Source: a virus. From it: a DNA stretch of 20,665 nt. The notes under the pieces are model-generated. The model had not been told where the DNA came from, searched no databases, and saw nothing but the letters and a program-made list of their open reading frames with translations. Below, one piece after another: positions 1 through 19,752 of this stretch (position 1 is the first letter of the stretch; every line of letters starts with the position of its first letter). The translations under genes and the position numbers were made by a program. Location of the stretch: the IMG/VR virus record IMGVR_UViG_3300043446_002753, positions 1 through 20,665 of that record, one strand, 5' to 3'.

Positions 1-235
1 CTTCCCAACCTTCGCTAGAACGATAACGAGCGTCCTCGGCTTCTTTGTCGTAGTCACGAGCGTTACGCTCTTTCTTGCTCTTGGCGCTACTCCCCTCTGC
101 CATTTTTGCCATGAGTTCAGCTTTCTTACTGAACCGGGCTACTACCAGCGGTGCCGTACCTTGTAGTAATACCTCGACGGTGTTGAATTTTGGTGCAGAA
201 ATAACTACCGCTGTTTCTTTGACTTTCATATCCAT
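1..235 (-). CDS. Phage protein of unknown function (C-terminus cut by window edge)
   Basis: The frame is open from an ATG at 235 to the left edge, giving 78 residues that begin MDMKVKETAVVISAPKFNTV. The start is supported by an AGGAG ribosome-binding site about 7 bases upstream. A beta-strand-like N-terminal part is followed by a highly charged stretch (about residues 48-70) rich in Lys, Glu, Asp and Arg. Small phage proteins of this general layout are common in recombination and replication arms, but I cannot name the family with certainty. It is the last visible gene of the leftward operon and lies 22 bases after the preceding stop. Confidence 0.75.
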   Translation of the reverse strand, partial: MDMKVKETAVVISAPKFNTVEVLLQGTAPLVVARFSKKAELMAKMAEGSSAKSKKERNARDYDKEAEDARYRSSEGWE

Positions 236-257
236 GATATTTCTCCTAGTTAATTAA

Positions 258-419
258 CTACCACCGTGCCTCGCCGTACTCCTCAGCTGTCGGCACTTTC
301 GTTTTGGGTTTTGGCTGTACAACTAGCTTCCACCCCTCTTGCATGAACTGCTCCGCAGATTCTTTGTCCCAGAACTTACGGAATAACAGCCCATCTTCGT
401 CATAGACTTCGTACCTCAT
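258..419 (-). CDS. Small hypothetical protein, 53 aa
   Basis: This short reading frame encodes MRYEVYDEDGLLFRKFWDKE and continues to a C-terminal ...EYGEARW. Its ATG overlaps the stop of the upstream gene in an ATGA arrangement (419-416), which is typical of translational coupling and is the main reason for calling it. The product is acidic and aromatic-rich with no recognisable motif. The sequence starting 'YEVYDEDGxLxRKF' is reminiscent of small phage proteins that carry a short beta-hairpin, but no function can be given. Confidence 0.65.
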   Translation of the reverse strand: MRYEVYDEDGLLFRKFWDKESAEQFMQEGWKLVVQPKPKTKVPTAEEYGEARW

Positions 420-598
420 ACACGAAGCATGAAGCCTAATACCTTCGATAAAAACGACTGCTTCTCTTCTCTGTATCCGAGCAACACGCTCTGAGCAAAA
501 CTTTCTTCAGGGCTGTACTCGTCAATTTTGAATCTAGGTATATAGAACACTCCAATCTTTGGGGGTTCCTCCTTAATAAATTTACCGTCACGTAACAT
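416..598 (-). CDS. Small hypothetical protein, 60 aa
   Basis: This 60-residue protein begins MLRDGKFIKEEPPKIGVFYI. The ATG at 598 is preceded by a strong AGGAGGA ribosome-binding site, and the stop is coupled to the next gene by an ATGA overlap. The C-terminal segment ('SFLSKVLGFMLRV') is amphipathic or hydrophobic, but too short to call a membrane helix with confidence. No domain was recognised. It sits between the Cas4-like nuclease gene and the 53-aa gene in one tight leftward operon. Confidence 0.65.
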   Translation of the reverse strand: MLRDGKFIKEEPPKIGVFYIPRFKIDEYSPEESFAQSVLLGYREEKQSFLSKVLGFMLRV

Positions 599-609
599 GT
601 TGAGTCCTC

Positions 610-1275
610 CTATCTGTTTTTGCCGTTATGCTCACAATCAACAACTGCGCAAAATTTACGGCATGTAAAGTTAGGTTTAGGGTTCCAAACCCCTGTATCA
701 AATGCTGCCTCCAATCGCCTCGTAGAATCAATCCATCTTATCCACGACTGCGGTTGATCTTCGCTCTTGTATACTCTCGGCACCAAGTCCTCTGCTACCA
801 AAAACAACAGTCCTGCTTTAATAGTTTTTATCTCTGGAAAATGTTTGAATGTTAGTAATGCCAACAACTCAAGTTGTTTTGTATCTGCGTACTGACTGCT
901 CTTTCCAGTCTTGTAATCAATAATCCTTGCCTTATCCCCATCAATTACAAGCAAGTCAACAATACCTCTAGCCCAAACTTCAGGGTCGTTAAACTTACAC
1001 GGGGTGAAATCTTTCTTCAACCCCATTTCATATTCACAATACTTAGTGCCTACCAAGTTCCGCATCGCAACAAGCTGTGGTTTAAACTGCGAAAACTTAG
1101 GTGGCAGGTCTACCCCATCCCTGATGAATTCTTCAGCAGCTTTGTGTACCGCGCTACCATACAGCAGATGCTCTTGCATCGGCTCGACAATATCCTTGAC
1201 GATGCGCAGTCGGTAATACTTCCGAGGGCATTGCTCGAATAGCGAGATGCTGGAGTAAGACCATGTGTAACTCAT
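610..1275 (-). CDS. PD-(D/E)XK nuclease, Cas4/RecB-like, with putative Fe-S cysteines
   Basis: This 221-aa protein is a likely DNA exonuclease of the PDDEXK_1 superfamily (Cas4, AddB C-terminal domain and RecB-type nucleases). Visible motifs in order are the N-terminal 'SxSxxxxFEQCPRKYYR' signature with Cys16; His44 in 'YGSAVH'; Asp107 in 'GIVDLL'; Asp120 and Lys122 in 'DYKTGK'; and a QxxxL/Y-type motif at Gln134. Three C-terminal cysteines (205, 209, 214) together with Cys16 could ligate a 4Fe-4S cluster as in Cas4/AddB; that is inference, because the spacing C-x3-C-x4-C differs slightly from textbook examples. The ATG at 1275 has an AAGGAG site and overlaps the upstream stop (ATGA). The location downstream of DNA polymerase suggests a role in replication or recombination end-processing. 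Confidence 0.88.
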   Translation of the reverse strand: MSYTWSYSSISLFEQCPRKYYRLRIVKDIVEPMQEHLLYGSAVHKAAEEFIRDGVDLPPKFSQFKPQLVAMRNLVGTKYCEYEMGLKKDFTPCKFNDPEVWARGIVDLLVIDGDKARIIDYKTGKSSQYADTKQLELLALLTFKHFPEIKTIKAGLLFLVAEDLVPRVYKSEDQPQSWIRWIDSTRRLEAAFDTGVWNPKPNFTCRKFCAVVDCEHNGKNR

Positions 1276-4212: not shown

Positions 4213-4250
4213 AAAAAAAGGGACAAGATGACATTGCGTCAACTTGTCCC
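4213..4250 (-). terminator. Rho-independent terminator of the leftward AAA/VWA operon
   Basis: A hairpin with arms GGGACAAG/CTTGTCCC and TGAC/GTCA, separated by one A-A mismatch and closed by a 5-base loop (4220-4250), is followed on the minus strand by seven T (4219-4213). It lies 28 bases after the stop of the 4278-5150 gene. The hairpin core is also a perfect copy of the dispersed 27-bp palindrome described elsewhere, so it may be a regulatory site as well as a terminator. Confidence 0.8.
4222..4248. repeat. 27-bp dispersed palindrome, copy 1 (in terminator hairpin)
   Basis: Reads GACAA-GA-TGAC-ATTGC-GTCA-AC-TTGTC and fits the consensus GACAW-N2-TGAC-N5-GTCA-N2-WTGTC at every fixed position. 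It lies in a gap between two leftward transcription units. Over 30 positions it agrees with the copy at 12407-12433 at 24, counting from three bases before the core. Confidence 0.85.
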
Positions 4251-4277: not shown

Positions 4278-5150
4278 TTAACTAGCGGTAATTATCTCAC
4301 CGTTACACAGGAAGAACCAATTGTATTCATTAACCACAAACCGGACGCCGATAGATTCTGCTGCTTGTTTCTCTTTCAGCATCTTCAGCATACCGATCTT
4401 GGGTTGAAGCACCTCTGGCAAATCATACGAAGATAGTAGCTTTCTGGTTATAAACTCTGTGCCGGTGTGAGTTACCTCCGTCATGGAACCATCTCTTTCC
4501 TCGATCACAACCACACCATCACGCAACTCAAACCTACCCTGCACCGCTGAGACTATGCTATGAGTAGTGAAATGTTTCTCTGTATCAGGTTTTGTAAGCT
4601 TGCTGTGTACTGCGCTAGGAATAGGTGGACTGTCTCCCTTCACCACCTGCATCATGTACACAGCCATGTCCATAGCAAACTCTTCCGCGATACGCTCGGC
4701 AGAACGTCGTGCGCTGTAACTGATGTTGTTAAGTTCTGCTTCTGCCTGAGTCCATATATCCTTTCCTCGTTCTTGTGGTGTCTTGGTCACGGAAAACACT
4801 TTCACCGATAGCTTCAAAGCTTCAGAGTACTTAGCAGTTTCTTTGACTTCCCTCCTTCCGATGCTTTTCCTTATTCGGGGGGATTGTATCTCGTATACAT
4901 GGACTCGCCCACTAGAACCTCGATGGGTGCGGTATTCAACTTGTACCTTACCTACCTGCTCTACCCCATTGAACACAAGCACGTTATTGATATAGGCAAT
5001 ATCCTTACCTTCCATGTCCCGCAGCCAGTTATCTGTACTCTTGGCTTCGAACGAAAGCGACGGAACCTTCAGGTACAGCTCTGTCAAAAACTTCTCTAGC
5101 GGCGGATACACAGGGGAATCCGCGAACTTCGTGGTTTTATCTAGTTTCAT
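4278..5150 (-). CDS. Hypothetical phage protein, 290 aa
   Basis: This 290-residue protein begins MKLDKTTKFADSPVYPPLEK. The ATG at 5150 is chosen because GGGAGGAAGT precedes it; an ATG at 5168 would overlap the upstream gene and lacks a comparable site. Mixed alpha/beta character is suggested: a beta-rich segment around residues 50-90 ('KDIAYINNVLVFNGVEQVGKV'), a helical segment around 140-180 ('SARRSAERIAEEFAMDMAVY') and a beta-rich C-terminus. No catalytic motif was recognised. It is the last gene of the AAA+/VWA operon, ending 28 bases before the terminator hairpin, so it may be an accessory or substrate protein of that module; this is inference from position only. Confidence 0.82.
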   Translation of the reverse strand: MKLDKTTKFADSPVYPPLEKFLTELYLKVPSLSFEAKSTDNWLRDMEGKDIAYINNVLVFNGVEQVGKVQVEYRTHRGSSGRVHVYEIQSPRIRKSIGRREVKETAKYSEALKLSVKVFSVTKTPQERGKDIWTQAEAELNNISYSARRSAERIAEEFAMDMAVYMMQVVKGDSPPIPSAVHSKLTKPDTEKHFTTHSIVSAVQGRFELRDGVVVIEERDGSMTEVTHTGTEFITRKLLSSYDLPEVLQPKIGMLKMLKEKQAAESIGVRFVVNEYNWFFLCNGEIITAS

Positions 5151-5161
5151 ACTTCCTCCCA

Positions 5162-6052
5162 TTACCATTCGAATTTAGCTAGGATGCTATCGACTTTGCG
5201 TTTCACATCGTCACGAATTGCATCCGACTCTTTTAGTTCTTCGTAGTCAACACCATCGATTGCACGATTGAGTTCGACTCTTGCCAGTTCCAGCTTCGGG
5301 TCGTTGGCAATGTTCAGTCTACTCAACAGGCCCACCAACTCTTTCGCGTTGGATACCAGCGTAGAGTGAAAGCCCTTACGCTTGCCATCCTGACCATCTG
5401 TCAGTCTGTCGCTCATGTGGGTCAGACAATCATGCAGCCTATCCCAGATGTCACGCATCGCATGGTTAAGACGTTGGTTGAAGTGGTCGGTGTACTGTTG
5501 CGCCAGTTCAGCCTTCGCTTGCTCGTTGATGTCGATACGAAAATCCCCTGCTGTCGGCACAGGACTCACCGCATAGTTAAAGCGGAACTTGTTAGCAATC
5601 ATCTCAACCGCAGGGTACTCCTCGCGGTCAAACAAATCACCAAGTTGAAAAGCCGCTGCTGATATCAACGTAGGGTACTGCTGAAGAAAGTTAGCCACCA
5701 GTTCCTCGAAGTTCTCCTTGTGCTGATCAAGCTGCGCCTTGTACCCATTGAAGAACTGTTGGGCTGTCACGATACGCTGTCCATTGTCAGACCACGGCAG
5801 CGAGTTCAAGTTGTTCCACAGTCTTGCCTGTGCTGCGTACTTAGTCACAGCCTCAAGCGCAGGGCTACCCGCAAGCAAATGCTTGTGATAGTTGCCAGCT
5901 TTTACTTTAGTATTCTTGGAAGCATCAACCTCCAGCGATACCTTCTTGTCCAGTTTCCTAGCAGTCCAGCAAGAAATGCTAAGTTCAACCAGTAACGATG
6001 ACGATGCTATGCCGAACGATTCGAACGTCGGCGTTTCAGTTATTGCGTTCAT
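5162..6052 (-). CDS. Phage protein, possibly DUF3150-like, partner of AAA+/VWA pair
   Basis: This 296-aa, mostly helical protein begins MNAITETPTFESFGIASSSL. Its early segment 'LLVELSISCWTARKLDKKVS' followed by a Lys/Asp-rich stretch and long helices resembles DUF3150-type proteins, which are often encoded beside a MoxR-like ATPase and a VWA protein. I make this assignment from memory of that layout and rate it as tentative. It has no enzyme motif. The ATG at 6052 follows GGGGTGAGAT and starts 3 bases after the VWA stop. Together with the two neighbouring genes it probably forms a functional complex. An imperfect copy of the 27-bp palindrome lies inside it (5384-5410). Confidence 0.85.
   Translation of the reverse strand: MNAITETPTFESFGIASSSLLVELSISCWTARKLDKKVSLEVDASKNTKVKAGNYHKHLLAGSPALEAVTKYAAQARLWNNLNSLPWSDNGQRIVTAQQFFNGYKAQLDQHKENFEELVANFLQQYPTLISAAAFQLGDLFDREEYPAVEMIANKFRFNYAVSPVPTAGDFRIDINEQAKAELAQQYTDHFNQRLNHAMRDIWDRLHDCLTHMSDRLTDGQDGKRKGFHSTLVSNAKELVGLLSRLNIANDPKLELARVELNRAIDGVDYEELKESDAIRDDVKRKVDSILAKFEW
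5384..5410. repeat. 27-bp dispersed palindrome, degenerate copy inside a gene
   Basis: Reads GCCAT-CC-TGAC-CATCT-GTCA-GT-CTGTC. The inner TGAC/GTCA pair is perfect and the right outer arm TGTC is perfect; the left arm has GCCA instead of GACA. The right half equals that of the intergenic copy at 8658-8684. Being in coding sequence, it could be a chance match. Confidence 0.45.
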
Positions 6053-6055
6053 ATC

Positions 6056-7321
6056 TCACCCCACATAAACAGTTTGTCCATACTTCGGCACAAAGTCTTT
6101 CTTGCCCACCACACACCACAACACCGGTGCGCTGATGCGGTTCCACTCATGCCAACCATCACCGTAGAAATCACCGTCGGTCAGCATGATCACGCATTGC
6201 GGCGCGATACGCTCGGCTTCGAGATAGATCGGCACACACTCAGGCTGCGTACCGCCGCCACCTCTAGGCTTCGTGCTGTCAATAACATTAGCTACCTCAG
6301 CGCCGCGATAAGTTTCATGGCTTGCTACGTGGCTATCCCAATACAGTAGTTCAACTGTCTCAGGTGCTACGTCATCACAGATAGACTTCATCTCACCCAT
6401 GAACTGAGCAAGCAACTCACCTTGCACAGAACCGGATGTATCGATACCCACCACCATAGTCTCTGCCTTCTCTGTTACTGAACTCGGCATGATGATGTCC
6501 ACACCCAAATACCTACGGTTGGGTCTACGCCACGTTGATTGATCGCCACCCTTTGTGTGGGTCTTGATGAACTCACGCAACGCTTCACGCCAATCGACTT
6601 TGGGATACAGCAACTCGTTGATGCCACGAGATACCTTGCCTTTCATTTTTCCTGCTAGAATGGCACCCTCACGCAGCGCGTTATCTATCTCAGTCGCAAG
6701 CTCATCGGCTTGCTCTTTAGTCATCTTCTGTGCGCCCTCCCAGTCATGCTCATCAAAGTTATTACCGTTGCCATCCCCCTGCTGGCCTTGTTTGTCGCCC
6801 TGACCATCAGCAGGACTTCCTGACGAACCGTCATTATGTCCATCGTTCTTACGCTTCTCGGCCTCCTTCTTAAGTACGTCATAGACCTGCTTAGTGTCCA
6901 TATTACGGTACTGCTCGTCTAACAAGCCCATCAACTTACCGTCCTTGTCCCTCGGCATCTCAACCGCTTCGCCGCTCGGGTCGGAGTCTATGATCTGCAA
7001 GTTAATGACGTAGTCCATCGCTGCGTTCGCAAGCAATGGGTTCTCTTTGGCAATGCCCTGCCACACCGTCAAGTGACGATACGCTTTGTGCATTGCCTCA
7101 TGCACGACAACAAACGCAAGCTGCTTGTCTGTTAGGGATTCCACAAACGCTCGCCCATACGTCACATCCCTACCGTTCGTCGATGCAGTCGGATGCGTCT
7201 CGCTGATAGACACCTTGCCTACCATGAACAGACCGCTGAACAAACAGAAGTTCTTGTGCTGCATTAGCTTGGCATGCGCCCTCTCGATGCGCTGCTCCGC
7301 AGATAGTTTTAGTGTAGCCAT
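6056..7321 (-). CDS. HExxH metallopeptidase-like / VWA-like domain protein (DUF2201-type)
   Basis: This 421-aa protein has two parts. The N-terminal part contains a zinc-metallopeptidase-like motif 'VVHEAMHKAYRH' (HExxH at 74-78) followed by 'AAMDYVIN' with Asp103 as a possible third ligand. A low-complexity Gly/Asp/Asn/Gln linker occupies about 159-195. The C-terminal part is a von Willebrand A-like domain with MIDAS motif 'DTSGS' (294-298), Thr358 in 'GGGGTQP' and 'TDGD' (381-384). This architecture matches VWA-like/DUF2201 proteins that work with MoxR-type AAA+ ATPases. The start at 7321 has GGGGAGG about 7 bases upstream and overlaps the previous gene by 13 bases. The likely role is a metal-dependent adaptor with its AAA+ partner; substrate unknown. 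Confidence 0.92.
   Translation of the reverse strand: MATLKLSAEQRIERAHAKLMQHKNFCLFSGLFMVGKVSISETHPTASTNGRDVTYGRAFVESLTDKQLAFVVVHEAMHKAYRHLTVWQGIAKENPLLANAAMDYVINLQIIDSDPSGEAVEMPRDKDGKLMGLLDEQYRNMDTKQVYDVLKKEAEKRKNDGHNDGSSGSPADGQGDKQGQQGDGNGNNFDEHDWEGAQKMTKEQADELATEIDNALREGAILAGKMKGKVSRGINELLYPKVDWREALREFIKTHTKGGDQSTWRRPNRRYLGVDIIMPSSVTEKAETMVVGIDTSGSVQGELLAQFMGEMKSICDDVAPETVELLYWDSHVASHETYRGAEVANVIDSTKPRGGGGTQPECVPIYLEAERIAPQCVIMLTDGDFYGDGWHEWNRISAPVLWCVVGKKDFVPKYGQTVYVG
6814..6840. repeat. 27-bp dispersed palindrome, near-perfect copy inside the VWA gene
   Basis: Reads GACTT-CC-TGAC-GAACC-GTCA-TT-ATGTC. The inner pair and the right arm are perfect; the left arm is GACT instead of GACA. It falls in the part that encodes the flexible linker, where protein constraint is low. 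Confidence 0.55.
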
Positions 7322-8657: not shown

Positions 8658-8684
8658 GACAACCTGACACCATGTCAGTCTGTC
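8658..8684. repeat. 27-bp dispersed palindrome, copy upstream of the AAA+ ATPase gene
   Basis: Reads GACAA-CC-TGAC-ACCAT-GTCA-GT-CTGTC, matching all GACA, TGAC, GTCA and TGTC blocks. On the minus strand its TGAC includes the TGA stop codon of the upstream gene, so it spans the gene junction immediately before the AAA+ leader. Confidence 0.85.
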
Positions 8685-10021: not shown

Positions 10022-10209
10022 TACTTCTTCTCCTTGTCGTCGTACAGGACATACTGACGCTTGGTCAGGATGTCGTTCAGTTTCCTCGTCGTTGCCTTCA
10101 GGTCATACATCGGCTTGTTAAACAAAAGGCAATGCAACTCCATGTTTCTGGCGGTGTCGGCATCTTCCCTTGCCTTCCGTTCTTTCTTCAGTTCGCGGTC
10201 TTTACCCAT
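10021..10209 (-). CDS. Small charged hypothetical protein, 62 aa
   Basis: This 62-residue protein begins MGKDRELKKERKAREDADTA and is very rich in Lys, Arg, Asp and Glu in its first 20 residues, then predicted helical. The ATG at 10209 has GGAGG about 6 bases upstream; the longer frame to 10338 overlaps the preceding gene and is rejected. Its stop overlaps the next ATG (TAATG). A perfect copy of the 27-bp palindrome (10048-10074) lies within its coding sequence, in the part encoding 'NDILTKRQYV'. Function unknown; the charge pattern would fit nucleic-acid or protein binding. Confidence 0.7.
   Translation of the reverse strand: MGKDRELKKERKAREDADTARNMELHCLLFNKPMYDLKATTRKLNDILTKRQYVLYDDKEKK
10048..10074. 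repeat. 27-bp dispersed palindrome, perfect copy inside a small gene
   Basis: Reads GACAT-AC-TGAC-GCTTG-GTCA-GG-ATGTC and fits every fixed position of the consensus although it is within coding sequence. This shows that the motif is not limited to intergenic hairpins. Confidence 0.8.
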
Positions 10210-10922: not shown

Positions 10923-11094
10923 TGTTATCCCCTTCACCGTCGGTTTTGTTTGGCTTGTCGTACTGCACTTTGGAGCAGGCTTGGCAGACTGTGTGGCCGT
11001 AAGCAAGTCTGGTCTTTCCTATGTTGTTAGTCAGGCAGATACGGCACGTGTTTGGGTTACGCGGGTTGTGCGTTTGTTTGCGTTGTTTAGACAT
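10912..11094 (-). CDS. Zinc-ribbon-like small protein, 60 aa
   Basis: This 60-residue basic protein begins MSKQRKQTHNPRNPNTCRIC and has CxxC pairs at Cys17/20 and Cys37/40. Between the pairs, 'TRLAYGHTVC' parallels 'ARYKLGYNLC' in the next gene, suggesting duplication. The ATG at 11094 lies inside a copy of the 27-bp palindrome, with the ribosome-binding sequence AGGTG in the loop of a CTGAC/GTCAG stem. An in-frame GTG three codons earlier is inside that stem and is not used here. Probably a zinc-binding regulator or adaptor; specificity unknown. Confidence 0.75.
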   Translation of the reverse strand: MSKQRKQTHNPRNPNTCRICLTNNIGKTRLAYGHTVCQACSKVQYDKPNKTDGEGDNNAP

Positions 11095-11269
11095 TCTGAC
11101 CACCTGTCAGGTTGTCGTTGCGGTTGTGGTACTCGGCAGCGATGGTGTTGACGATGGCTTGCTGCGCGTCGTGATAGCGCAGTTCTTCCCATGCCCTCAT
11201 GTACTCGGCACGTGGTGTTGCAGGATCGTTAACTATGCGTTGTAGGTAAGCGATGTAGTTGGTGGACAT
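11087..11269 (-). CDS. Small hypothetical early protein, 60 aa
   Basis: This 60-residue protein begins MSTNYIAYLQRIVNDPATPR; the first half contains 'AEYMRAWEELRYHDAQQA', predicted helical. Its start region lies in the first of two identical 32-bp repeats (11262-11293), with GGAGG in the loop of a short TGAC/GTCA stem just before the ATG. Its stop overlaps the zinc-ribbon gene start by 8 bases. No domain was recognised. Confidence 0.72.
   Translation of the reverse strand: MSTNYIAYLQRIVNDPATPRAEYMRAWEELRYHDAQQAIVNTIAAEYHNRNDNLTGGQNV
11090..11116. repeat. 27-bp dispersed palindrome over the start of the 60-aa zinc-ribbon gene
   Basis: Reads GACAT-TC-TGAC-CACCT-GTCA-GG-TTGTC on the plus strand. 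On the mRNA (minus strand) the WTGTC end contains the ATG start of the 10912-11094 gene, and the 5-base centre is the ribosome-binding site. Confidence 0.85.
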
Positions 11270-11293
11270 AATGACCCTCCGTCAGATTGTCGT
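11262..11293. repeat. 32-bp direct repeat, copy A (contains a 27-bp palindrome, 11265-11291)
   Basis: Identical over 32 bases to 11498-11529. It contains GACAT-AA-TGAC-CCTCC-GTCA-GA-TTGTC. On the minus strand it carries the ribosome-binding site (GGAGG) and start codon of the 11087-11269 gene. Confidence 0.92.
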
Positions 11294-11316: not shown

Positions 11317-11505
11317 TTAGTAGCGAAGGCCGGTGTTTACGTCGATCAGGCCAGTCAGGTCTGCGCCCTCGATGAACTTGGTTGCTGCATGGGCAGCATG
11401 GGCGAACTCGATGTTGGTAAGCAAGCCGTTGCAGTATTGGGTTACTAGGTTGTTGATGATGTCGTTTAGTTGTTGCATGGTTTCTTGGTTGATAGTAGTG
11501 GACAT
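11317..11505 (-). CDS. First gene of the leftward early operon, 62 aa, unknown
   Basis: This 62-residue protein begins MSTTINQETMQQLNDIINNL and is predicted helical; it contains 'EFAHAAHAATKFIEGADLTG'. It is the promoter-proximal gene, about 75 bases downstream of the predicted start of the consensus promoter at 11586-11614, so it should be expressed very early. The ATG at 11505 lies inside the second 32-bp repeat with GGAGG in a hairpin loop. Early promoter-proximal phage genes often encode host-takeover factors or regulators, but nothing in the sequence proves that here. Confidence 0.75.
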   Translation of the reverse strand: MSTTINQETMQQLNDIINNLVTQYCNGLLTNIEFAHAAHAATKFIEGADLTGLIDVNTGLRY

Positions 11506-11529
11506 AATGACCCTCCGTCAGATTGTCGT
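11498..11529. repeat. 32-bp direct repeat, copy B (contains a 27-bp palindrome, 11501-11527)
   Basis: Perfect duplicate of 11262-11293, placed over the ribosome-binding site and start codon of the 11317-11505 gene. The 27-bp palindrome inside reads as in copy A. Confidence 0.92.
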
Positions 11530-11614: not shown

Positions 11615-11772
11615 GTGAATGTCTGTGGTTGCAAGGGGCGTGTCTTGGTCTTTGGCACGATGATTGCTTGATGAGATTTTTAAAAAGTTTTTTGTTTTGC
11701 CTGGCAACGGTGGCAACTTTGTCGTTTTGCTTGTTGCGTATTGGGGGTTATTGAGATGTTATCGTAATTGCT

Positions 11773-12317
11773 ATTGTTCTCTGTTTTTCTTGTAATGTTC
11801 GCTGTTTTTGATTTTGGAGAACAATTGCGATAATGGCATCGGATTAGTGGGGGTGGCTGTGTCGTTGGTTTGATTGTTCTGGGTGGGGAAAAAACAGAGA
11901 ACAATTGCGGGAATGGCAACGATTTAGTGATTTGAGAAAGTTCAATAAAATCAATGGGTTACGATGTTCTGAATGTTGTTAATATTGTTATTGTTCGAAA
12001 AAAAAAAAATAGAGAACATTAGGCCTAGGAAAAATGCGGATTGTACGGGATGTTCATTTGTTCTATTAAAAAAAGAGAGCGGAGCTAAAACGGATGCGAT
12101 ATTTTGATAACATTTTTATGCACTTGCCGAATGCCTCGTTAAAAGTGAAAAATCCGAAAATCGTCAAAAACGTCGGAACATTAGAACATTGCAGAACAAT
12201 TAACGAAATTTTGATAACTTTTTTAGACAAAACGTAATGTAATCAATGACTTACGAGCGTTTTATAATGTTCGAAATTTTCCTTGTAATGTTCGCTGTTT
12301 TTTTATTTTCGAACATT
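11773..12317. repeat. Iteron-like array of about 16 GAACA(A/T) motifs
   Basis: Copies of NGAACA(A/T)T or its complement lie at 11773, 11794, 11818, 11873, 11898, 11963, 11990, 12013, 12049, 12057, 12175, 12183, 12193, 12266, 12287 and 12310 (first base of each 8-mer). Thirteen match GAACAWT strictly; those at 11963, 12049 and 12057 differ at the last base. Both orientations occur and spacing is irregular, with three copies tightly packed at 12175-12200. Longer repeats surround some copies: AGAACAATTGCG with AATGGCA at 11818 and 11898, and CTTGTAATGTTCGCTG at 11790 and 12283. The array fits either replication-initiator or repressor binding. Confidence 0.75.
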
Positions 12318-12361
12318 GCACAAAAAATAGGCAGAAAAATATTTTAAAAAAGGCTTGACAA

Positions 12362-12409
12362 GTCGCAAAAAAATCTTTAAGCTGCTAGCAGCTTAAAGCT
12401 TTTAGCGAC
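12362..12409. repeat. 24-bp perfect palindrome nested in a 48-bp inverted repeat
   Basis: The core 12375-12398 is self-complementary over all 24 bases (arms CTTTAAGCTGCT/AGCAGCTTAAAG). Flanking GTCGC (12362-12366) and GCGAC (12405-12409) extend the symmetry with A-rich and T-rich shoulders. Seven A lie on the left, so on the minus strand the hairpin is followed by ATTTTTTT, like a leftward terminator. A TTGACA hexamer at 12355 lies just upstream, but no good -10 follows it. It could be an operator, origin structure or terminator. Confidence 0.7.
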
Positions 12410-12433
12410 AAAATGACGCTGCGTCAGGTTGTC
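12407..12433. repeat. 27-bp dispersed palindrome in the control region
   Basis: Reads GACAA-AA-TGAC-GCTGC-GTCA-GG-TTGTC, with all fixed positions matching. It abuts and slightly overlaps the 48-bp inverted repeat, and lies upstream of the rightward promoter. Confidence 0.87.
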
Positions 12434-12468: not shown

Positions 12469-12509
12469 GGCTACCACGTTGGAATGACCGTTCCTTCCTT
12501 TTTGATAAC
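12469..12509 (+). repeat. 41-bp element, copy 1 (upstream of first ~200-aa gene)
   Basis: Begins GGCTACCACGTTGGAATGAC and ends TTTTGATAAC. It matches 13297-13339 completely except for two single-base gaps. The segment GGAATGACCGTTCC has imperfect dyad symmetry, and the terminal TTGATA is a possible -35. It is probably a promoter/operator duplicated together with the downstream gene. Confidence 0.88.
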
Positions 12510-12529
12510 AAGACACTTTGTCGTATAAA
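12502..12529 (+). promoter_or_regulatory. Probable rightward promoter of the first ~200-aa gene
   Basis: TTGATA (12502-12507) and TATAAA (12524-12529) are separated by 16 bases, each matching consensus at 5 of 6 positions. The spacer contains a small inverted repeat GACA-CTT-TGTC that could be an operator. An alternative start signal TGG-CATAAT (12588-12596) further downstream resembles an extended -10. Confidence 0.55.
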
Positions 12530-12535
12530 TACAAC

Positions 12536-12583
12536 GCTACCTGGTAGCATGGTATACAAAGTAATTTCCCTATCCTGGTAGCA
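12536..12583 (+). promoter_or_regulatory. Operator-like GGTAGC repeats in the leader
   Basis: GCTACC-T-GGTAGC (12536-12548) is a perfect 13-base inverted repeat. CCTGGTAGCA occurs at 12540-12549 and again at 12574-12583. GCTACC also opens the 41-bp elements at 12469 and 13297, so the same protein might bind all of them. Confidence 0.45.
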
Positions 12584-12603
12584 AATCTGGCATAATCTTG
12601 AAT

Positions 12604-12630
12604 GACGGACTGACATGGGGTCAGCGAGTC
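12604..12630. repeat. 27-bp dispersed palindrome, degenerate copy in the first rightward leader
   Basis: Reads GACGG-AC-TGAC-ATGGG-GTCA-GC-GAGTC. The inner pair is perfect; the outer arms keep only GAC/GTC. It lies 20 bases before the start codon at 12651, close to the ribosome-binding site. Confidence 0.55.
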
Positions 12631-12650
12631 CTTTCCTTTTTGGAGGTTTT

Positions 12651-13241
12651 ATGAGTGAAGTAACTATTGCCCAGCCGCAGGCTGGTGCGTTCGCAGCCGG
12701 TGAAATGTTCGCGCGTAGTGAGATCGACGCGGACGAAGCCCTTGAGATGTTTGCGCGTACTGTGGGCGCGGAGCCATCCTACGAGTTGTGGCAGGCCGAG
12801 CGCGTTAATTTTGTGAATGGCTATGTGAACGTTAAGCCGCACGCGAAAGGCGATTCTGCGGACAAGGCTTTCCAGCGCATGAAGGACCGCGCGGTAAGTA
12901 AATTCGCTATCGTCGTACCAAAGTCACCGAGCGCAGCCGCGACCAAGAAGGCCGCCGAACGCAAGGCCAAAGAAGCGAAGCTACTAGAGAAGCACGGTAG
13001 CGCAACGCCGACCATGCTACGCGCCCAGCTTGAGGCCGCTTATCAGGCGCTAGCAAAGCAACCTGATAGCAAGGTAGCCAACGCGCTAGTCAACGAGTAC
13101 AAGAAGGTTTTAAAGCTCAAGACGCGCGATGAGGACAAAGCCGAGCGCGAGGACATCAAGGCCATCAAAGATGAGATACGCGAGGCCATGAAGGACGCTA
13201 CGCTGGCGCAACTCGAGGCCGCTTTAGCCGCGCTACGATAA
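12651..13241 (+). CDS. ~200-aa phage protein A, paralogue of the next gene; function unknown
   Basis: This 196-aa protein begins MSEVTIAQPQAGAFAAGEMF. The start at 12651 is chosen because GGAGG lies 5 bases upstream; an ATG 12 codons earlier has none. Segment 47-58 ('LWQAERVNFVNGYV') and 69-80 ('SADKAFQRMKDR') match the next gene product. A Lys/Ala/Glu-rich helix (about 97-116) and further helices suggest an elongated coiled-coil-like C-terminal half. Its codons are markedly richer in G and C than those of its paralogue: the 60 bases at 12721-12780 contain 37 G+C, against 22 at 13561-13620 in the paralogue. It has its own promoter region and terminator, so it is likely expressed strongly and separately. 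A DNA-binding or regulatory role is possible but unproven. Confidence 0.85.
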   Translation: MSEVTIAQPQAGAFAAGEMFARSEIDADEALEMFARTVGAEPSYELWQAERVNFVNGYVNVKPHAKGDSADKAFQRMKDRAVSKFAIVVPKSPSAAATKKAAERKAKEAKLLEKHGSATPTMLRAQLEAAYQALAKQPDSKVANALVNEYKKVLKLKTRDEDKAEREDIKAIKDEIREAMKDATLAQLEAALAALR

Positions 13242-13260
13242 AATCAAACGCACCAGTTTG

Positions 13261-13282
13261 AACCCGCTCCGGCGGGTTTTTT
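13261..13282 (+). terminator. Rho-independent terminator after protein A gene
   Basis: The hairpin AACCCGC-TCCG-GCGGGTT (13261-13278) with a tetraloop is followed by a T-run (through 13282). It lies 20 bases after the stop codon and directly before the second 41-bp element. Confidence 0.93.
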
Positions 13283-13296
13283 ATTGCCCGAAACAA

Positions 13297-13339
13297 GGCT
13301 ACCACGTTGGAATGACCGTTCCCTTCCTCTTTTGATAAC
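13297..13339 (+). repeat. 41-bp element, copy 2 (43 bases; upstream of second ~200-aa gene)
   Basis: Same sequence as 12469-12509 apart from two inserted C residues in the pyrimidine stretch. It lies between the terminator of gene A and gene B, about 155 bases before the start of gene B. Confidence 0.88.
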
Positions 13340-13359
13340 TTTTGCTTCTCTGGTATCCA
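13332..13359 (+). promoter_or_regulatory. Possible promoter of the second ~200-aa gene
   Basis: TTGATA (13332-13337) is followed after 16 bases by TATCCA (13354-13359), the same spacing as in copy 1 but with a poorer -10. Another possibility is TTGGAT and TAAAAT 18 bases apart in the AT-rich leader around 13404-13433. Downstream, TGATTCAG occurs twice (13443 and 13460) around CATGGGG, a heptamer also present before gene A. Confidence 0.35.
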
Positions 13360-13494
13360 GACAGACTGACTATTAATCATTATGTCGTGATTAAAATATA
13401 CAATTGGATATTTGATAGGATGATAGGTAAAATTATTTCCAATGATTCAGGCATGGGGCTTGATTCAGAGCACTAACCTAATGGAGTTTCCATC

Positions 13495-14130
13495 ATGGAA
13501 AAGACTACAGTAGCAGCACCGATACCGGTGCTAACGGATGACCAGCGGTTAATCGCTCGCGATGCTGGTTTTCAATTTGCCAAAAACCAATTGGCTAACA
13601 TAGAAACGGCATCGAATTATGCGCATATGCTCGATACTGATCCGACACTTGACAAGTGGGAAGCAGCGCGCATTGACTGGGTGTCTGGTTATGTTGAGGC
13701 AAACCCGAACAATACAGGCAATGCAGCTGATAAGGCTTGGCAGCGGTTCGCTGATTTGCTGGATAATCTATTCGGACTAACCAAACCAAAATCGACCAAT
13801 CCGGCAGCTGAGAAGAAAAGAGCAGAGAGAGAAAAGAAAGCAGCTGATTTGCTTGCAAAGTATCAAGACCAATCCGTAGCCGAGCTGAGAGCAACAATCG
13901 AGCATGCTTACCAAGTACTCAGCCAAAACCCAAACCACAAGGAATCTCTGAAGCAGGTCAAGGAGCTGGACAAAGTATTAAAGGCAAAGCAATCGGCAGC
14001 CAACAAGCAATACGGTGAAGAGCTGAAAGAGATGCGCAACGACGTTATCGATGCGGTTCGCAAGTGTACTGAAATCGAAGCATTAGCAGCCGCTCTGGAT
14101 ATCCTAAACTCAGCTGAGCAGATGATGTAA
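13495..14130 (+). CDS. ~200-aa phage protein B, paralogue of the preceding gene; function unknown
   Basis: This 211-aa protein begins MEKTTVAAPIPVLTDDQRLI. The ATG at 13495 follows GGAG by about 8 bases. Segment 54-67 ('KWEAARIDWVSGYV') and 78-88 ('ADKAWQRFADL') align with protein A, as do the Lys/Ala/Glu-rich helix (about 105-122) and 'ATIEHAYQVLSQNPNHKES' (133-151). The N-terminus is longer than in A. Composition is close to the rest of the window, unlike A. It ends 21 bases before a strong terminator. The pair is a clear tandem duplication that includes regulatory DNA. The family is not recognised. Confidence 0.87.
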   Translation: MEKTTVAAPIPVLTDDQRLIARDAGFQFAKNQLANIETASNYAHMLDTDPTLDKWEAARIDWVSGYVEANPNNTGNAADKAWQRFADLLDNLFGLTKPKSTNPAAEKKRAEREKKAADLLAKYQDQSVAELRATIEHAYQVLSQNPNHKESLKQVKELDKVLKAKQSAANKQYGEELKEMRNDVIDAVRKCTEIEALAAALDILNSAEQMM

Positions 14131-14151
14131 CCAACCAGCTTTATTTTTCAG

Positions 14152-14177
14152 CCCCACCGATCGGTGGGGTTTTTTTT
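14152..14177 (+). terminator. Strong rho-independent terminator after protein B gene
   Basis: A perfect 18-base palindrome (CCCCACCGA/TCGGTGGGG) at 14152-14169 is followed by eight T (14170-14177). It separates the duplicated genes from the structural operon. Confidence 0.95.
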
Positions 14178-14288
14178 CGCCCAGACCGCCGACCCCACAC
14201 CCCCTAAAATTTTTTGACACCCCTATGGCGTAACGTACACCATGATTTGCTCATCGTCTCACCACATTTCAAAATACCCCCCACCCCC

Positions 14289-19152: not shown

Positions 19153-19340
19153 TGGACGCTTTAGAACTACTTGTCCAACAGACGGATGAGAAGCTTGCGC
19201 AACTCAAAGAGCACTTGGCAGCCGGTCGAGCGACTAGCTTTGAGGAGTACAAATCAGTTTGTGGTGAGGTTCGAGGTCTACTCATTGCGAGAGGGTACAT
19301 ATTAGACCTTAAGAAAAACTTGGAGGAATCGGATGACTGA
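19152..19340 (+). CDS. Small conserved protein after portal, 62 aa
   Basis: This 62-residue protein begins MDALELLVQQTDEKLAQLKE and reads as two helices joined around 'AAGRATSFEEYKSVCGEVRG'. Its start overlaps the portal stop (TAATG) and its end overlaps the next gene by 8 bases, so translation is likely coupled. Small proteins of this size and layout are frequent directly after portal genes in uncultured podoviruses; function unknown, possibly head assembly. Confidence 0.8.
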   Translation: MDALELLVQQTDEKLAQLKEHLAAGRATSFEEYKSVCGEVRGLLIARGYILDLKKNLEESDD

Positions 19341-19752
19341 CTCAATTTTGCTGGCTACAGACGCCAGTAACCCGCAAGTTGTTGGGGCGTATCAAATTGA
19401 CGCTACAGATGCGGAAAAAGCAACACAACTTCCCAAACCTTCGGGATACAGAATCCTGTGTGCCATACCGGAGATTGAGAAGGAGTTTGATAGTGGGATC
19501 GTCAAGGCGGATACAACCCTCCACTATGAAGAACTGCTGACTACTGTTTTATTTGTGGTCGATATGGGGCCTGATTGTTACAAAGATACTAACAGATTCC
19601 CAACTGGGCCTTGGTGCAAGACAGGAGATTTTGTTTTGGTGCGTCCAAATGCTGGTTCCAGACTGGTCATTCACGGACGTGAATTTAGGATGATTAACGA
19701 CGACTCCGTAGAAGGAGTAGTTGAAGACCCACGCGGTATTCGCCGTAAATAA
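19333..19752 (+). CDS. GroES/Cpn10-like co-chaperonin homologue
   Basis: This 139-aa protein contains a Cpn10-like core of about 100 residues from Pro34: 'PSGYRILCAIPEIE' (first strand), 'SGIVKAD' (mobile-loop region start), 'TTVLFVVDMGPD' (71-81), 'KTGDFVLVRPNAGSR' (96-110) and 'HGREFRMINDDSVEGVV' (114-130), the order of motifs in GroES. A 33-residue N-terminal extension precedes it. Phage Cpn10 proteins such as T4 gp31 assist the host GroEL in folding the capsid protein; position between portal and scaffold genes fits that role. The call rests on pattern reading, not on alignment. The ATG at 19333 has GGAGG about 6 bases upstream. Confidence 0.75.
   Translation: MTDSILLATDASNPQVVGAYQIDATDAEKATQLPKPSGYRILCAIPEIEKEFDSGIVKADTTLHYEELLTTVLFVVDMGPDCYKDTNRFPTGPWCKTGDFVLVRPNAGSRLVIHGREFRMINDDSVEGVVEDPRGIRRK

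Follow-up and report, generated by a model that had tools for sequence, protein, structure and literature searches.

Two anciently duplicated podovirus genes share a conserved upstream element, a candidate DNA-level control site

Introduction

Why would two neighboring paralogous genes, each with a terminator of its own, keep the same short stretch of DNA in front of them after the proteins that they encode have diverged? This question is raised by a locus in a 20.7-kb virus record (IMGVR_UViG_3300043446_002753; 20,665 nucleotides), referred to here in its full length as the window. Sequence comparison places the window as a fragment of an uncultured podovirus that is a distant relative of pelagiphage HTVC027P. 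The nearest cultured portal proteins share ~42–45% identity with that of the window and come from podoviruses and their relatives (e.g., HTVC027P, Pag-Yong1, and DSL-LC04). The structural gene block includes a gene for a GroES-like co-chaperonin (positions 19333–19752), and Rfam and tRNA searches of the window returned no match.

Related IMG/VR contigs were collected by two routes, namely as portal neighbors and by an exact scan for GTTGGNATGACCGTTCC, and further members of the gene family were added by profile search. The exact scan gave 38 matches, most of them located 120–220 nt 5' of a family gene. The gene pair with both upstream elements readable was found in 29 contigs, which collapse to 15 lineages. 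Genomes without the family were also available, including G003 (contig L005) and G004 (contig L034), whose portals are 95–96% identical to that of the window and which lack both the gene family and the element. In the palindrome comparison described below, genomes G001–G004 correspond to contigs L183–L198.

The tandem genes and their products

The two genes, A and B, lie on the same strand, and each is followed by a terminator-like stem and T-run, at 13260–13279 and 14150–14171, respectively:

12651..13241, plus strand: gene A, 196 aa, basic (pI 8.9), predicted to be helical by homology to B
13260..13284, plus strand: intrinsic terminator of A
13495..14130, plus strand: gene B, 211 aa, acidic (pI 5.5), with an all-helical AF2 model (pLDDT 86, pTM 0.49)
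14150..14178, plus strand: intrinsic terminator of B

The products are 37% identical over 180 aa (E-value 2e-35), so the original prediction of paralogous proteins of about 200 aa with separate terminators holds. The tandem arrangement recurs in the 15 lineages, and phylogenetic analysis places all A proteins in one clade and all B proteins in another (support 91/96). The A/B duplication is thus old and predates the sampled lineages. Gene A is missing while the B-side gene is present in four contigs (L004, L107, L090, and L110). The most distant family member (L036, positions 1–642, minus strand) lies in the opposite orientation and has a perfect 11-bp hairpin upstream.

The strong difference in G+C content noted at first is real in the window (57.3% in A, 47.6% in B), but its direction is not constant among relatives, as A is the richer gene in only 11 of 31 pairs. 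The explanation offered at first, in which a relative with another base composition donated one of the copies, is not supported given this inconsistent sign, the single clade formed by each paralogue, and the age of the duplication.

The function of the proteins was probed by profile search and structure prediction, and these yielded an all-helical model of B and no family or fold match that names a function, be it that of a regulator or of an abundant accessory factor, the two roles suggested originally. No homologue was detected by tblastn of B and two divergent family members against 50,697 phage records. A Pfam-A scan of A and B from the window gave nothing over the cut-off, and a PHROGs v4 profile scan with 30 members gave scattered matches only (E-value > 1e-4, at most two members per family). 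The family has no match in the PDB, and Foldseek and VIA-align searches with the B model, which has a pTM of only 0.49, returned no significant fold match; the best PDB matches extend over a single helical part, and their Z of ~7 is nothing out of the ordinary for models made of helices. No recognizable DNA-binding fold was found in A or B by the Pfam, PHROG, PDB, and fold searches. Across the family, A is usually basic and B is usually acidic, and this tendency hints at different partners or at a hetero-oligomer. The proteins probably act as abundant helical factors, with nucleic acid or a host protein as their binding partner.

A 26-bp element upstream of both genes

The original prediction described a 41-bp element in two copies (12469–12509 and 13297–13339), and both copies are found at these positions. 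Comparison of 50 non-redundant copies narrows the conserved part to an asymmetric 26-bp core, GCTACCRCGTTGRNRTGACCGTTCCC, with conservation ending on both sides. This core is referred to as E:

12470..12495, plus strand: E, copy A
13298..13323, plus strand: E, copy B, shortly 3' of the terminator of A

The 25-mer GCTACCACGTTGGAATGACCGTTCC is identical at 12470–12494 and 13298–13322, and a search that allowed up to three mismatches gave no further copy in the window (0 expected in shuffled sequence). In the window, the similarity of the two copies continues for ~15 bp past E. The TTGATA at the end of the longer element had been read as a −35 box; however, nothing is conserved past the 26th base in the 50 copies, and TTGATA occurs only in the window and a few relatives. 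It is consequently not a shared −35 box.

The position of E follows the gene family. Essentially every family gene is preceded by E, which lies 127–223 nt 5' of the ATG (71 leaders, of which 50 are non-redundant). Three contigs of 58–66 kb and three partial contigs contain exactly two copies each, all of them at family genes; the four phages of 63–67 kb that lack the family (G003–G006) have none. In the four contigs without A, the element is kept 5' of B. No homologue of known function lacking the element was encountered, and wherever the DNA 5' of a homologue is long enough, E is present; the one exception is the very distant L036. The proposal that the element is under strong selection while the proteins diverged is borne out, as the 26 bp are kept in all 50 copies and the proteins are 31–40% identical within the genome pairs of the 15 lineages. 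The related statement that the upstream DNA is more alike than the genes is correct for the element alone, since the 30-bp flanks of the two copies are 32–33% identical against a baseline of 27%.

Several roles can be considered for such an element. A structure in RNA was rejected, as folding of E does not go beyond chance (z = 0.3 and 0.9), the single possible stem is broken by natural variants of E, and there is no covariation; these results favor a role as DNA. A conserved RNA target in the host was also rejected, as a scan of 84,980 prokaryote genomes for CTNNNNCGTTGGNATGACCGTTCC gave two matches, neither beside a family gene. The location of E, near the point where the early genes, which run leftward, meet the packaging genes, which run rightward, and adjoining a region of AT-rich repeats, would suit a replication, packaging, or recombination site that was duplicated along with the genes by chance. 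This role is highly improbable, as phages without E (L005/G003) have similar packaging and replication genes with homologous portal and terminase, and as E tracks the A/B genes even where only one of them is present. The AT-rich region itself (11750–12350; ~35% G+C) contains GAACATT/GAACAAT repeats and a 30-bp inverted repeat and is possibly a replication origin.

Further insight into E comes from its variable bases, which are common to both copies within one genome. Across the 15 lineages, the A and B copies of a genome are 92.3% identical, compared with 84.7% when partners are permuted, and in a test that takes lineages as independent the observed value was never reached in 20,000 permutations (maximum 89.0%). 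Shared variable bases are the pattern expected if one reader serves both copies. Gene conversion over very short tracts could give the same appearance of coevolution, and frequent short conversion or repeated fresh duplication would explain the high similarity within genomes, and the ~15 bp of additional likeness in the window, with no need of a shared reader. An explanation of this kind is nevertheless very improbable: the flanks and genes are not homogenized and A and B are ancient paralogues, conversion tracts of ~26 bp between unrelated flanks are hard to achieve, and the strict conservation of E across lineages demands a function even under conversion. Gene conversion limited to 26 bp is therefore considered less likely than a shared reader.

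Promoters and leader hairpins

Better promoter candidates than TTGATA appear further 3', directly before a hairpin that is predicted in the leader of each gene:

12591..12596, plus strand: predicted −10 box of A, CATAAT, 7 nt 5' of the hairpin, inferred by comparison
12604..12630, plus strand: predicted 5'-end RNA hairpin of the A mRNA, GACGGACTGAC-AUGGG-GUCAGCGAGUC, with covariation in relatives
13405..13433, plus strand: sigma70-like promoter of B, TGGATA-17-TAAAAT, a weak consensus match whose position is supported by the adjoining hairpin
13447..13463, plus strand: predicted 5'-end RNA hairpin of the B mRNA, UCAGGC-AUGGG-GCUUGA, which includes a G.U pair

The leaders of the family share an 11-bp hairpin before the start codon with a five-base loop of the ANRGG type, mostly AUAGG, AUGGG, or AUUGG. 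The 46 distinct hairpins comprise 506 stem cells, of which 388 are Watson-Crick pairs and 55 are G.U pairs; with shuffled partners, the number of Watson-Crick pairs drops to 222. The raw pairing percentage is inflated by a search that took the best-pairing site in each leader. The stronger argument for the hairpin is that the stem sequence changes wholly under a constant loop, such that stems as unlike as GACAUAAUGAC and UCCUUUGUUGG are both paired. A TATAAT-like hexamer lies within 16 nt 5' of the hairpin in 39 of the 46 leaders (22% of random 16-mers), usually 5–8 nt ahead of it, and the hairpin should accordingly be the 5' end of the A and B mRNAs. The loop of the A hairpin in the window contains an in-frame ATG (12615) that would lengthen gene A by 12 codons.

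These predictions put E upstream of the promoter and outside the predicted A and B transcripts. The start of E lies ~64–151 bp 5' of the predicted −10 box, and helical phasing between the two is marginal (R = 0.37, p ~0.05). Sites of simple repressors or activators do not usually show a spread of almost 90 bp. The possibility that E serves as a promoter in its own right, recognized by a special polymerase or sigma factor, was also considered, as its length and strictness resemble those of a promoter and the spacing of TTGG...TTCC is superficially like a −24/−12 layout. This reading is improbable. When compared with sigma54 promoters, the spacing fits, but the −12 position has CC in place of GC, and several lineages have GA where GG would be expected. 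Furthermore, no conserved feature follows E at a constant spacing, E is limited to two copies per genome, a sigma70-like −10 box and 5' hairpin are found further 3', and no RNA polymerase is present among 25 of the 28 Pfam families listed for the early proteins of G001 and G002.

A separate palindrome regulon

The window also contains a 27-bp palindrome, GACANNNTGAC-N5-GTCANNNTGTC, of which 11 copies are present when up to two mismatches are allowed (0.1 expected with up to three); they occur mostly at gene starts and include the A and B leaders:

12407..12433, plus strand: exact copy 5' of unit A, with a counterpart in L004 at 5876
13360..13386, plus strand: copy with one mismatch between E and the B promoter, from the palindrome search
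4222–4248, 8658–8684, 10048–10074, 11090–11116, 11265–11291, 11501–11527, and 12604–12630: other copies, the last being the A hairpin, which doubles as a match with two mismatches
5384–5410 and 6814–6840: copies within genes

At several leftward genes (e.g., 11265–11291), the Shine-Dalgarno sequence falls in the center of the palindrome and the ATG in its right arm. The same palindrome is present in G001 (10 copies) and G002 (9 copies) and absent from G003 and G004, which each have 11 copies of TTAAC-N4-GTTAA, often around the Shine-Dalgarno sequence. Lineages of this phage group have recurrent palindromes of their own, e.g., CCGACA-N2-TGTCGG, CTAACA-N2-TGTTAG, GGTTCA-N3-TGAACC, and TTAAC-N4-GTTAA (seen in G001–G004, L015, L038, L045, L058, L070, L073, L082, and L085).

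An 80-aa helix-turn-helix (HTH) protein, whose gene is situated outside the window, is encoded in all four genomes G001–G004:

L185:3381–3617, L188:7968–8216, L192:6905–7138, and L196:2782–3027: 80-aa HTH protein

Its recognition segment is SRMTIYKWFxGEWxPR in G001 and G002 and SR(M/V)TVYNWFKGKAVVSG in G003 and G004. As this segment changes with the palindrome type, the 80-aa protein is likely the reader of the palindrome. The A and B proteins were considered for this role because they occur in the same genomes as the 27-bp palindrome, and they were set aside in favor of the HTH protein, the better candidate. The palindrome regulon is a second regulatory layer, separate from E.

Replacement of the pair in sister phages

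Sister phages without A and B have an ORF of ~170 aa on the other strand, between the early genes and the terminase gene, with its own terminator:

L005:6958–7464, minus strand: member of a ~170-aa helical-protein family, also present in L034, L008, L007, L018, L019, and L012

A conserved block of its own, TGTGCAAATTACTAAGGCA, lies 5' of this gene. A relationship of the L005-type protein to A and B was considered and rejected (hhalign E-value = 0.21, not significant), and a structure model of the protein gave no match. The A/B locus thus seems to host interchangeable stand-alone factors.

Proposed control of the pair

Comparison of the contigs shows that an old tandem duplication produced two self-contained units, each made up of E, a promoter with a 5' hairpin leader, an ORF, and a terminator, and that many related podoviruses have kept both units next to each other. 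The genes and their element suggest the following mechanism. E would act as double-stranded DNA, most likely recognized by a single phage-encoded factor with sequence specificity that serves both promoters and so places A and B under common control. The two copies of E would change together, since both must fit the one factor. The factor would most likely be a family protein itself, which would then control its own dose by feedback. Self-control is favored because E tracks the family closely and stays before B in genomes without A, and for the latter reason B is the better candidate for the reader. A probability of roughly one half is assigned to this reading, in which both units answer to one type of control site in the DNA and the family probably regulates itself. 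Points that speak against it include the absence of a recognized DNA-binding fold, the low pTM of the B model (0.49), and the variable spacing of E from the −10 box with its marginal helical phasing.

A second possibility, which is somewhat unlikely, is that E is read by another phage protein and that A and B are only its controlled effectors. The reader could be an unrecognised regulator or a 296-aa protein (window positions 4281–5168), which is the sole family other than A/B that is common to the window and both E-bearing genomes, G001 and G002, and was not found by blastp in the E-less genomes G003 and G004. The 296-aa protein evolves fast (27–36% identity), which would fit a changing E. 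However, its counterparts in G003 and G004 may have escaped blastp, its gene sits in the replication block beside a DUF3150 protein, and nothing ties it to recognition of a DNA site (a PHROG search gave no match).

A bolder version of control by the family itself is unlikely and is offered tentatively. Here, the usually basic A and the usually acidic B would be all-helical regulators of a new class, which bind DNA in a sequence-specific manner with no known DNA-binding fold and jointly read the asymmetric E to set their own level, and the module could be swapped for an unrelated one such as the ~170-aa gene of the L005 type that occupies this locus in sister phages.

Comparison with known systems

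Repressor/operator systems are examples of autogenous regulation in phages. The site of such a pair is confined to the gene that encodes its regulator, and E occurs only at family genes. Late activators of the P2 Ogr/delta type recognize a conserved box at a distance 5' of a sigma70-like promoter, and these boxes serve many promoters at a fixed distance. E is similarly conserved, lies upstream of a sigma70-like promoter, and is putatively read by a phage factor; in contrast to the P2 boxes, it precedes two promoters, its distance from them varies, and it has no clear dyad.

T4 gp32 is presented as an autogenously regulated phage gene (PMC535899). The likeness is that one phage protein would control its own dose through a dedicated site. 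Unlike gp32, which in that account acts on mRNA, E is a putative DNA site far upstream of the promoter, and the same type of site is common to two paralogues.

The start-associated sequences (SAS/ESAS) of Cluster K mycobacteriophages are short conserved sequences repeated at gene starts that include the Shine-Dalgarno sequence; they contain inverted repeats, their consensus differs between subgroups, and their function is left open (PMC3203893). These sequences are the nearest published parallel to the 27-bp palindromes of the window, not to E, which is located far 5' of the initiation codon, plays no part as a Shine-Dalgarno sequence, and is restricted to the two paralogues rather than present in many copies at unrelated genes. 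The lineage-specific palindromes and the changing HTH protein bear on the open role of such elements.

Significance

The A/B tandem with its shared element is real, conserved, and undescribed within the reach of the tools used. The family, for which tblastn gives no counterpart among cultured-phage genomes, is tied one-to-one to a strictly conserved DNA site, and the two together make a candidate regulator-site pair. With two E sites per genome, diverged genes, and unrelated flanks, these podoviruses may hold a natural record of the coevolution of a site and its reader.
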